Shown here in pieces: positions 9,001 to 51,000 of a stretch of 64,000 nucleotides of DNA. Position 1 is the stretch's first letter; every line of letters begins with the position of its first letter. Under the pieces are notes generated by a model that saw only the letters and a program-made list of their open reading frames with translations, ran no database searches and was not told where the DNA came from. The DNA comes from Alviniconcha marisindica (lineage: Eukaryota; Mollusca; Gastropoda; Provannidae): assembly GCA_018857735.1 (NCBI GenBank), contig JABMCL010000106.1, forward strand, positions 806,001-870,000, written 5' to 3'. Made by a program: the position numbers and the translations under genes.

Positions 9001-12000
9001 ACGATGAGATTCCTGCCCCTTCTCCTGTCGGTGTGAGGGAACCCATGCATGCCATCATGCGTTACACACGCCTTTTTGTTTAGCCGAAATGATTGAGGGG
9101 AGATGGGAGTTGGTGCCATAATGATTGGAGGTGAAGGATGGAGGTGGGCTAACCATGATGATTGAAGGTAGATGGGGTGGGAAGGTAACCATAATGATTA
9201 TGGCTAGAAGGGGGTAACTGTAATGATCAGAAAGACTGAAGATAGATGGGGGTAGGAAGGGGGTAACCATAGCAATCAGAAAGACTGAAGGTATATGGGG
9301 TGGGAAGATAACCATAATCATTACAGGTATGAAGGGGGTAACCATAATAATCAAAAAGACTGAAGGTAGATGGGGCAGGAAGGTAACCATAATGCTTCAG
9401 GGTAGGAAGGTGGTAACCATAATGATCAGAAAGACTGAAAGTAGATGGGGCGGGAAGGTAACCATAATTATGGGGAGGAAGGGGGTAACCGTAATGGTCG
9501 GAAAGACTGAAGGTAGATGGGGTGGGAAGGTAACCATAATGATTACAGGTAGGAAGGGGGTAACCATAACAATTGGAAGGACTGAATGTAGATGAGGGTA
9601 GGAAGGGGGTAACCATAACAATCAGAAAGACTGAAGGTAGATGGGGTGGGAAGGTAACCATAATGATTACAGGTAGGAAGAGGGTAACCATAACAATTGG
9701 AAGGACTGAACGTAGATGAGGGTAGGAAGGGGGTAACCCTAACAATCAGAAAGACTGAAGGTAGATGGTGTGGGAAGGTAACCATAATGATTAAGGTAGG
9801 AAGGGGGTAACCATAATGCTCAAAAGAACTGAAGGTAGATGGGGTGGGAAGGTAACTGTAATGATTCAGGGTAGGAAGGGGGTAACCATAACGATCGGAG
9901 AGACTGAAGGTAGATGGGGTGGGAAGGTAACCGTAATGATTCAGGGTAGGAAGAGTGTAAACATACCAATCAGAAAGACTGAAGGTAGATGGGGTGGGAA
10001 GGTAACCATAATGATTATGGGTAGGAAGAGGGTAACCACAATGATCAGAAAGACTGAAGGTAGACAGGGGTTGGGAGGGTAAGTTGATAATTGGATTTTA
10101 ATGCAACTGCACAGGGTCACCCTGAATGAAGGCAACGGTGGTAAGGTATGATGATGTGTGTGTGTGTGTGTGGGGGGGTGTATATCCATAATGATATGGG
10201 CTGAAGGAAGGCAAGAGGAACAGGAAAGGTGGTGGTGGGGGGTGGGGGTATATCCACAGTGATTAGGGCTGAAGGAGTGTAGAGATGGATAACCATGATT
10301 GAAGAGGGGGAGGGGGTGTAGCTGCAGTAATTTGGGGTGAAGGGTAGAGATGGATAACGATAATGAAGTGGGGGGGTGGGGGTGGGGGGGTGGTGGAGAT
10401 AAAGGAGGCATGGCAAGATTGTATGTTTCAACTAGACAGAAATTGAAAAAAATGTTAATTAATCATGTGTGACATAATTAATTATGTGTGACGTATCACT
10501 TGCGACCCCCCCACCCCCCACTTTGTTTCCTCCTGTGCCCCCTTTCGCTATAAACCTTCCCCACCCCCACCTCCACTCACCCACCACCACCCCCCCAAAA
10601 AAAGAAGAAAAAAGAAAAGAAGAAGAGGTAGCGGAGGAAGCACTACATGAAAGGAACTGCTAATATTCAGCCATGCGTGACACCCAAAACTTTCAGCGCC
10701 TGGTGGACGAGGGAGAGAATATTAATTACAACAGCATGGACCCAGTCGACGCTGCCGCCGCCGAACCTGAGGCGGGACCCTCGCACCATGAGTCTCAGAG
10801 CTACCGTTCTCCTGATTCCCACAGCCGAAGGAAGTCGAGTACCAGGAACTCCAAGAGGCCGCCACTCGTCTCCCTCTTCATGTTTGCCATGAGGCAGAGT
10901 TATGTCCTCATGCTGATCGCCATGATGGTGAGTTGAGTGAAGAAGTGTCGTGGGGTCACTGTCAGTCGGTGAGCAGGTAAGACGGATGGTGAGTTGAGTG
11001 AATGGGTGACCGTGAGGTCACTGTTGGTTGGTGAGTGGGTTAGGTGGGTGGCTGTGAGGTCACCGTTGGTTGGTGAGTGGGGTAAGGCTGTTGGTGAGTT
11101 GAGTGAAGAAGTGCTGTGAGGTCACTGTTGGTTGGTGAGTGGGTAAGACTGATGGTGAGTTAAGTGAAGAAGTGCTGTGAGGTCACTGTTGGTTGGTGAG
11201 TGGGTAAGACTGATGGTGAGTTGAGTGAAGAAGTGCTGTGAGGTCACTGTTGGTTGGTGAGTGGGTAAGACTGATGGTGAGTTGAGTGAAGAAGTGCTGT
11301 GAGGTCACTGTCAGTTGGTGAGTGGAGTAAGACTGATGGTGAGTTGAGTGAATGGGTGACTGTGAGGTCACTGTCAGTTGGTGAGTGGAGTAAGACTGAT
11401 GGTGAGTTGAGTGAATGGGTGACTGTGAGGTCACTGTCAGTTGGTGAGTGGAGTATGACTGTTGGTGAGTTGAGTGAATGGGTGACTGTGAGGTCACTGT
11501 TGGTTGGTGAGTTGGTAAGACTGATGGTGAGTTGACTGAATGGGTGACTGTGAGGTCACTGTCAGTTGGTGAGTGAAGTAAGACTGATGGTGAGTTGAGT
11601 GAATGCCTGACTGTGAGGTCACCATCGATCCCCACCATTGTCTCTGAGTTACGGTAGTGCTGGCCACCTCTCACTTCCCCCCACATAATTATATTTTGAT
11701 GCATGCTGACAGCATCTCCTCAAGTGTCCGTGGTCGTTCATGCGTGCTTGCACAGGCCTGGAGCATCATGTACCTGAGCTGGCTGACCTTCATCCTGCTG
11801 CTGGGAGCCTGCCTGCTGTGGATGTTGCCCAACTCGCGCCGCGGCAGCCTGGTGGCATCCCCGTTGCTGGTGCTGTACGTCGTTTGCCTTCTGCTGGCGC
11901 AGTACATCTACAACATGGACCTGGAGAAGGAGCTGCCTGTCAATGCCGGAGTCATCACCCTTGCCGAGATTGGCCTCATGCGCTTCGACACCGCCCCCAA

Positions 12001-48000: not shown

Positions 48001-51000
48001 GACTTCAAGGAGCCGACGGAGCATTTCCAGGGTAATTTATGTCCATTTTTTGGACACATCCTGATTTAGCATATTTATGGTTAAGAATGAAAAGTGTGTG
48101 GTTTTAAGGAACCAAACTCGGGAAGTTTCAGAAGATTTGTGAAAAACTTGTTTCTTATAACGTTTTTGAGTTAAATACTCAGGCACAGAAAAGACTTCAA
48201 GGAACTGACGGAGCATTTCCAGGGTAATTTACATCGATTTTATATGCAGCCTGATTTAGTATGTAGTTATGAAAGAAATGAAAAAAGTGCGTGGTTTTAA
48301 GGGACCAAATGCAGAAAGTTGCAGAAAAGTTGCAAAAAACAAATTTCTTGTAGCGTTTTTGAGTTGAACACTGGAGCTTAGAAAAGACTTCAAGGACCCA
48401 ATGGAGCATTTCCAGGGTAATTTACATCGATTTTTTAAGCAACCTGTGGTTATGAAAGAAAAAAAGGGCACGATTGTAAGGAACGAAACTCATGAAGTTG
48501 TAGAAAATTAGAAAAGATGAATTTCTTGTAGTGTTTTCGAGTTGATCACTTGGGCTCAGAAAAGACATCAGGGAGCTGACAGAGCATTTCCAGGGTAATT
48601 TACATCGATTTATATGCAGCCTGATTTAGTATGTAGTTATGAAAGAAAAAAATGTGCATGATTTTAAGGGATGAAATGCAGAAAGTTGCAGAAAATTTGC
48701 AAAGAGCAAATTTCTTGTAGAATATTTTAGTTGAACACTGGAGTGCAGAAAAGACTTCAGGGAACCAACAGAGCATTTTCAGGGTAATTTACATTGATTT
48801 TTAAGCAGCCTGATGTAGTATGTAGTTCAGAAAGAAAATAAAAGTGTGTGATTTTAAGGGACCAAACTCAGGAAGTTGTGGAAAATTTGCAAAAGAATAA
48901 TTTCTTGCAGTGTTTTCCAGCTGAACGCTCTGGGGGTCACCCAGTCTTGTAGTGTTTTCCAGTTTGGTAGTGTTCTTCAAGCTGAACCCTCTGGGGGTCA
49001 CCCGGTCTTGTAGCGTTTTCCAGTTTGGTAGTGTTCTTCAAGCTGAACCCTCTGGGGGTCACCCGGTCTTGTAGCGTTTTCCAGTTTGGTAGTGTTCTTC
49101 AAGCTGAACCCTCTGGGGGTCACCCGGTCTTGTAGTGTTTTCCAGTTTGGTAGTGTTCTTCAAGCTGAAGATTGGCTTGCTTGTGACTATGGAATGTTTC
49201 AAGGGTGAATTTTCTCACCATTTCAGCAATGCAGACTGGTGATTACTATTTGTTTAAAGAGTGAACATTCTCACTGTTTCAGCGATTCGAGCTGGTGACT
49301 GCTACGTGTTTGAAGAGTGATTATTCTCACCAATTCAGTGATTCGAGGTGGTGACTTCTACTTGTTGAAGAGTGAACATTTTTCACCATTTCAGCAATGC
49401 AGGCTGGTGACTACTACTTGTTTGAAGAGTGAACATTCTCACTGTTTCAGCGATTCGAGCTGGTGACTGCTACTTGTTTGAAGAGTGATTATTCTCACCA
49501 ATTCAGTGATTCGAGGTGGTGACTTCTACTTGTATGAAGAGTGAACATTTTTACCATTTCAGCAATGCAGCCTGGTGACTACTACTTGTTTGAAGAGTGA
49601 TTATTCTCACCACTTCAGTGATTCGAACTGGTGACTGCGACTTGTTTGAAGAGTGAACATCCTCACCATTTCAGCTGTGCAGACTGGTGACTTCTACTTG
49701 TATTTAAGAGTTTAACATTTTTTCACCATTTTCGACGCATGCTGGTGACCCACTGTATTTGTTTGCAGAGTGAACATTCTCACCACTTCAGTGATTCGAA
49801 CTGGTGACTGCGACTTGTTTGAAGAGTGAACATCCTCACCATTTCAGCTGTGCAGACTGGTGACTACTGCTGGTTTGAAGATTGAACATTCTCACCATTT
49901 TGTGACGCATGCTGGTGACTGCTACTGGTATTTGTTTGCAGAGTGAACATCCTCACCATTTCAGCAATGCAGATTGGTGATTACTGCTTGTTTGTGGATT
50001 GAACATTCTCACCATTTTGTGACGCATGCTGCTGACTGCTACTGGTATTTGTTTGCAGAGTGAACATTCTCACCATTTTGTGACGCATGCTGGTGACTGC
50101 TGCTGGTATTTGTTTGCAGAGTGAACATCCTCACCATTTCAGCAGTGCAGATTGGTGATTACTGCTTGTTTGTGGATTGAACATTCTCACCATTTCAGCG
50201 ATTCACGCTGGTGACTACTACTTGCTTGAGGAGGGAACATTCTCACTGTTTCAGCGATTCGAGCTGGTGACTACTACTTGTTTGAAGAGAGAGCTGAGAT
50301 ATCCCTGGACAAAAGCGTGGACGAACAACGCCCAGAGCCCAGCTCGCTGACCTTCGGACAACAGGAACAAGAGGGGACAAAGAGACTGGGACCTCTCCAG
50401 GTAGTCCTTTGACCTTTCTGACCTAGTCCGTTTGACCTCTCTGACCTAGTCCTTTGACCTTGCTGACCTCCCTGTGCTGGAGTGTCTCACCACCTTGCAC
50501 ACAAACAGGTGTTCATGGCCCAGCAGCTTCCCTGATGCACATTTCGCAGAATAGTTTCAGGCGCACTTTGTGTGACGCTAGGTGTCACGGTTGCCGTGCA
50601 GAACAGCTGTCGTGGCTGAGTTAGTTTTCCGATGCACGCTTTCTGGAATAAATTTTTTTGCAGCAGAGTGGTGATAATGCCTAGTGATGCACAGGTCCCA
50701 GAACGGCTGATCATGAGAGAGGTTTGCCTGATGCGTAATAATCCCCAGAACAGATGCTCACGGCAGAGTGAGTGGTTTACCTGTTGACATAATTTCTGAA
50801 GTGCAAGTGCTCATAGCGCAGTGAGTGGTTTACCTGAAGACATAATTCCTGAACAGGTGCTCATGGCAGTGAGGGGTTTACCTGAAGGCAATTCCAGAAC
50901 AGGTGCTCATGGCAGAGTGAGTGGTTCACCTGAAGATATAACTCCTGAACAATTGCTGATAGCTTACCTGAGGCATAAGTTCCAGAATTGGTGCCCTATT

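Follow-up and report, generated by a model that had tools for sequence, protein, structure and literature searches.

Intronic tandem arrays span eight exon–intron boundaries of a Piezo gene, most likely from a caenogastropod snail

The 64,000-nucleotide stretch of DNA analysed here (the window) carries much of a gene for a Piezo mechanosensitive channel, the host of which is most likely a caenogastropod snail, and eight of the exon–intron boundaries of this gene lie inside tandem arrays whose repeat unit spans the splice site. Using the Piezo protein of Batillaria attramentaria as a guide for tblastn, we modelled the following gene:

6014–62640, plus strand: Piezo gene with 26 modelled exons (E0–E23 plus E3b and E17a), of which E21 and the end of E23 are probable.

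The joined exon translations (924 residues) retrieved Piezo proteins, with a 1,584-amino-acid protein from B. attramentaria as the top match (P0001; 58% identity), and of five test exons submitted to Pfam two gave Piezo domain hits, one of these being under the curated cut-off. Tandem repeats of all periods, as called by Tandem Repeats Finder (TRF), cover 50% of the window; they account for 53% of the bases in introns flanked by modelled exons and for 7% of those in exons. When only periods of at least 7 base pairs (bp) are counted, the array share varies strongly among the 25 introns (6074–62517): five introns contain no array (E7–E8, E8–E9, E10–E11, E15–E16 and E17–E18), and five are at least 80% array (E1–E2, E9–E10, E12–E13, E13–E14 and E18–E19).

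To identify exon edges that recur in the neighbouring intron, a 24-mer spanning each junction was compared with the adjacent intron at 49 edges (all except the E0 acceptor, the E12 donor and the E23 donor), and a match of at least 18 of the 24 bases was taken as recurrence. Seven edges were positive: the donors of E1 (10927, 18/24), E6 (28616, 23/24), E9 (32217, 20/24) and E18 (48031, 22/24), and the acceptors of E5 (24669, 23/24), E12 (36977, 24/24) and E19 (50255, 24/24). The acceptor of E14 (43182) reached 17/24, and the other 41 edges 12–16 of 24. TRF by itself placed seven edges within arrays, excluding that of E1; TRF, the 24-mer scan and a listing of the copies together gave eight edges, four donors and four acceptors, so that both 5' and 3' boundaries are affected. 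The corresponding arrays are:

10923–11622, plus strand: E1 donor array (exon end 10927), units of about 61–63 bp, 10 more junction copies, each unit with about 5 bases of exon.
24496–24762, plus strand: E5 acceptor array (exon start 24669), two copies of a 130-bp unit.
28596–29393, plus strand: E6 donor array (exon end 28616), units of 34–36 bp, 16 more junction copies, each with about 21 bases of exon.
32209–33357, plus strand: E9 donor array (exon end 32217), built on a 28-bp period, about 8–9 exon bases.
36823–37014, plus strand: E12 acceptor array (exon start 36977), four copies of a 48-bp unit.
42552–43183, plus strand: E14 acceptor array (exon start 43182), acceptor-like sites up to the E14 acceptor, about 2 exon bases.
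47992–49169, plus strand: E18 donor array (exon end 48031), units of 178–193 bp with about 40 exon bases, 4 more junction copies reaching to 48783.
49195–50289, plus strand: E19 acceptor array (exon start 50255), 56-bp units, 14 more junction copies with about 32–35 exon bases.

The start of the E1 array at 10923 was placed by hand from the copies, TRF setting it at 10987. Counting the real junction, and at identities of at least 60–66%, the donor arrays hold 11 (E1), 17 (E6), 32 (E9) and 5 (E18) copies, and the acceptor arrays 2 (E5), 4 (E12), 15 (E19) and 11 (E14). The E9 count, which includes 31 further junction-like copies matching at least 12 of 18 bases, is the least certain, its query being just 18 bases long.

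The arrays differ in how much of the exon they carry. In the E5 array about 94 bp of exon 5 is duplicated into the upstream intron, where the copy encodes QVSYPLWRAPMSAFWW, and in the E12 array the last three units contain CAG followed, across the junction, by ATCTGCTACGTCATGACA (encoding ICYVMT), the first unit being a diverged form. When the arrays were aligned to the exon edges of other introns, the maximum score was 19, which we took as the chance level; against their own exon edges, five arrays (the E5, E12 and E19 acceptors and the E18 and E6 donors) scored 26–49, whereas those of E9, E1 and E14 scored 17, 14 and 14, within the chance range. These five contain roughly 18–94 bp of copied coding sequence; in the other three, the unit spans the splice site and holds 2–9 exon bases (about 8–9 in E9, 5 in E1 and 2 in E14). 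A search for decayed arrays of the same type, in which 58 array blocks were compared with the exon edges, found none beyond those listed, the best other pair within a single intron scoring 14.

An original prediction, made from the letters of this DNA, had named six boundaries (10927, 28616, 32217, 48031, 24669 and 50255) as firm cases, and all six are among the seven edges found at the threshold of 18/24. Of its two probable cases, that at 36977 can now be regarded as firm, with 24/24 bases matching and a downstream frame that aligns with the Batillaria protein (ICY, LALMMLFS); at 43182 the acceptor does lie inside an array, but the unit includes only about 2 exon bases and the match stops at 17/24. 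The claim that the splice site falls within the repeat unit holds for all eight edges, while the stronger statement that the arrays were seeded from exon edges is borne out strictly for five and does not exceed chance for E9, E1 and E14. In keeping with the proposal that the arrays are unrelated, BLAST found no match among the eight at an E value of 1e-3. Since they lack similarity to one another, the eight arrays likely arose independently.

The site used in the gene model is the outermost of its array in all eight cases, meaning the first of the donors or the last of the acceptors. With the exception of E9, the tblastn pieces at these edges abut in the Batillaria protein at the junction, and the exon-proximal site therefore yields the conserved protein. 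Coding sequence at the real edges aligns with that protein (VSYxLWR, RLSALDRY, HFQ plus AIRAGDYYLF, and ICY, the last representing the three residues of E12 next to its junction). Because the real edge encodes residues aligned with the Batillaria protein, it is very likely that the exon sequence predates the array in the five exon-bearing cases. Splicing would thus appear to take place at the outermost site, past the copies.

Exon 12 itself (36977–37291) appears to be damaged in the assembly. The frame from 36977 continues for 81 codons and then meets a stop, and the conserved downstream part (FSRRTSARIWW..., from 37186) lies in a different frame; furthermore, a segment ending in ATGATGCTC-TTCAGC is present twice, about 110 bp apart. 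This frame break may reflect an assembly error, a haplotype defect or an internal duplication.

The internal structure of two arrays bears on how they may have grown. The inner units of the E6 array are near-identical, several of them identical, while the unit at the edge differs. For the real edge of E19, the best-matching copies in the array lie at distances of 804 and 972 bp (54/56 and 53/56 bases), compared with 48/56 for its neighbour, a pattern that suggests exchange or higher-order duplication within the array.

The most extreme case is the intron that lies between two of these boundaries:

48032–50254, plus strand: intron E18–E19, 2,223 bp, 99% tandem array.

Of this intron, 40% matches the first donor unit with its copies and 47% the last acceptor unit with its copies. 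The combined figure of 88% includes about 212 bp contributed by the two template units. An unrelated edge (E6), used as a control, gave no match in this intron. An array of roughly 60-bp units at about 48930–49169 has just a short piece in common with the long E18 donor unit. We tentatively suggest that the E18–E19 intron may be self-built from its two junctions, with the spliceosome keeping to the outermost copies, and that introns in repeat-rich animal genomes might grow largely by copying their own ends, in which case boundary arrays could turn up in any phylum; we regard this reading as a whole as doubtful.

To assess how well the copies resemble functional sites, a position matrix was computed from the 21 donors and 22 acceptors of the Piezo gene that lie outside arrays and was used to score the part of each intron that bears the array; this matrix is small, and several real sites score poorly on it. 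GT sites that equalled or exceeded the real donor in score numbered 17 of 80 (E6), 42 of 124 (E1), 4 of 190 (E9) and 4 of 52 (E18, these being the four other E18 copies). For AG sites and the real acceptor the numbers were 7 of 11 (E14), 3 of 59 (E19), 9 of 16 (E12, where the real acceptor is weak, at −2.3) and 0 of 9 (E5). Many copies are thus strong by the gene's own standard, in agreement with the earlier description of real splice sites embedded in rows of decoys.

If a copy were used in place of the real site, a stop would be predicted for 79 of the 89 copies, a set that includes copies without a splice dinucleotide, chiefly in E9. By edge, the predicted stops were 10/10 (E1), 16/16 (E6), 4/4 (E18), 13/14 (E19), 9/10 (E14), 27/31 (E9), 0/1 (E5) and 0/3 (E12). 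The ten stop-free extensions comprise four in E9, three in E12 and one each in E5, E14 and E19; splicing to the E5 copy would cause a frameshift, and splicing to an E12 copy would lengthen the protein by 16 residues for every unit. The high proportion of predicted stops fits copies that are present but are not normal sites. The splice dinucleotide itself is intact in 90–100% of the copies in six arrays (E5 and E12 left out; E9 represented by 16 hand-picked copies of 31), reaching 100% in four, and 10–45% of the dinucleotides within a unit are at least as conserved. Over all listed copies, retention is 0.77 in the wider E9 set, 0.88 in E12, 0.95 in E14 and 1.00 in the other five. Consequently, no clear signal of either purging or protection of splice dinucleotides was seen in the six arrays.

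We consider it probable that the eight arrays are mirages, a type of boundary-spanning repeat named in amphioxus, and that they are the tolerated by-product of ordinary tandem duplications that chanced upon exon ends, with no special process involved. According to this scheme, a tandem duplication in a repeat-prone snail genome, presumably produced by slippage, unequal exchange or template switching, would by chance overlap an exon end, and would be tolerated where the outermost site, adjoining the exon, remained functional. The array may subsequently grow and undergo exchange within itself, its copies being close to neutral.

Three chance tests bear on this proposal. The comparison that the original prediction had put forward as its refutation, a scan of random intron positions, was carried out for this gene: 46.6% of such positions are repeated in their flank, compared with 7 of 49 edges, so that edges are depleted, being repeated far less often than random positions. 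An exon edge must, however, lie near an array margin if exons stay unrepeated, and a second test therefore considered only repeated positions close to a margin. With a margin of 100 bp, such positions account for 9.4%, with 4.6 edges expected (P = 0.17), and thresholds of 19/24 and 20/24 gave P = 0.07–0.40. In the third test, the arrays of each intron were shuffled within that intron plus 40–94 bp of exon on either side; the eight observed edges compare with means of 6.4–9.7 over 12 settings (P = 0.27–0.84), a comparison that slightly favors the null, as it counts all 50 intron ends while the observed count omits the E12 donor. As placing the arrays blindly yields a comparable number of edges, this gene does not require a process that seeks out junctions, although a small junction preference may exist. 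The earlier proposal of a recurrent process that expands exon–intron junctions is consequently unsupported by these tests on a single gene.

Some observations weigh against chance duplication as we have framed it. In the second test, a margin of 60 bp at the 18/24 threshold yields 6.3% of positions and an expectation of 3.1 edges (P = 0.033); even this nominal value is weak, though, since it comes from a single gene that was picked for its striking look. The last exon codons of E9 are unaligned with the Batillaria protein (query gap 894–912), and the choice of the outermost site there depends on frame and phase alone. The proximity of the real E19 edge to distant copies makes stepwise slippage alone insufficient. 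Finally, duplication and growth are inferred from one assembly.

The strongest competitor is a mutational process directed at junctions, tied for example to transcription, R-loops or splicing, that preferentially duplicates exon–intron boundaries. It would account for eight affected edges in one gene, for the nominal excess at the 60-bp margin and for a sense bias of donor-like motifs (15 sense-rich compared with 5 antisense-rich among 44 intron array blocks). Against this, the excess is lost upon block placement, with the wider margin and at the stricter thresholds, the gene was chosen for its appearance, and only 8 of 58 intron array blocks lie across an edge; we therefore consider such a process unlikely.

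That the rows of splice sites are in use, regulating or buffering Piezo splicing and kept by selection, seems less likely still. Many copies do match the score of the real site, the splice dinucleotides are fully intact in four of six arrays, a tenth or so of the copies (10/89) allow a stop-free extension, and altered splicing has been reported for human boundary repeats (PMC2812944). Conversely, most copies lead to a predicted stop, the splice dinucleotide is equalled or surpassed in conservation by other dinucleotides in each of the six units, hardly any site in E5 or E9 reaches the real-site score, and amphioxus mirages are described as leaving regular splicing undisturbed (PMC3087553). Least likely of all is an origin of the arrays, or of their lengths, in misassembly: the E6 array includes several identical units, which leaves its copy number uncertain, long G homopolymers lie close by and exon 12 lacks read-through, but the units of most arrays differ by substitutions and spacing, and 42 of the 49 edges have no copy at 18/24.

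Other repeats in the window are as follows. Arrays away from exon edges that combine strong sense-strand donor-like motifs with a strongly positive GC skew are found at 9207–10082, 22132–22962, 24878–25369, 26651–27600 and 37829–40874. A dispersed repeat occurs in two copies (27938–28304 and 34633–34995) that are 76% identical over about 380 bp; part of it (27909–28142) also matches 37758–37519, inverted, at 73%. A 63-bp array of about 23 copies (95% match) lies at 233–1665, upstream of the modelled exons, and pure G homopolymers of at least 25 bases are present in introns at 37372–37396 and about 44727–44755. No RNA genes were detected by ARAGORN, nor by Rfam at gathering thresholds.

If these arrays are what we propose, a repeat type known from lancelets extends to a gene that is most likely molluscan, and the present data provide a one-gene estimate of the frequency of boundary arrays to anticipate where about half of the intron sequence is array. 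A true site flanked by a row of others of equal quality furthermore constitutes a natural test of spliceosome choice by position, and duplication across boundaries has been proposed as one way in which new introns arise. As far as we know, the novel aspects are the setting in a mollusc (most likely), the number of edges affected in a single gene (eight) and an intron that consists largely of its own ends and their copies; we found no report of boundary-spanning arrays in molluscs in a literature considered mostly by titles and the beginnings of abstracts, a Conus gene-structure paper (PMC3862624) among it, and such a report may exist.

The original prediction knew of no named class of repeat like this; tandem repeats across exon–intron boundaries have, however, been called mirages in amphioxus (PMC3087553 and PMC3902484). 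They were reported there in two globin genes, on the acceptor side in one and on the donor side in the other, and earlier in Adh3 (PMC3087553), and repeats in lancelet PGBD5 were likened to them, with TnC named as a further case (PMC3902484). Length instability, between alleles or somatic, and concerted evolution that leaves out the boundary unit count as further traits of mirages. Mirages and the Piezo arrays are alike in having a tandem unit across a boundary, on the donor or acceptor side, beside an exon still in use, in having AG or GT in many, though not all, of the units, and in scale (units of about 10–160 bp in amphioxus, spacings of 18–193 bp in Piezo). They differ in host, a cephalochordate as opposed to (most likely) a gastropod, in the eight edges of the single Piezo gene, and in the nature of the data, which in amphioxus include reverse-transcription PCR and alleles and for Piezo consist of the sequence of one assembly.

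Human genes in segmental duplications contain internal tandem repeats at exon–intron boundaries as well (PMC2812944). Both these and the Piezo arrays are minisatellites at such boundaries (the human units being about 30 bp), but the human repeats are associated with splicing changes and newly gained introns among recent paralogs, whereas the Piezo introns lie between exons common to another snail. Reportedly, the human IFI6 (6-16) gene, studied by Turri et al. in 1995, has a minisatellite at a donor, with units that carry donor sites and copies that are used as donors in the transcript.

A duplication across an intron–exon boundary is also described as having created a new intron in the potato RNA-dependent RNA polymerase (RdRp) gene (the Rogers model; PMC4974935). 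We considered, and rejected, an origin of this kind, with a new intron in a former exon: at seven of the eight edges (all but E9, which is unaligned at its end) the neighbouring exons are contiguous in the Batillaria protein, and the arrays there are wholly intronic. Thus, while intron gain of this type and the Piezo arrays share a duplication that crosses an intron–exon boundary, in Piezo it is existing introns that carry the copies, with no new intron evident at the eight edges.

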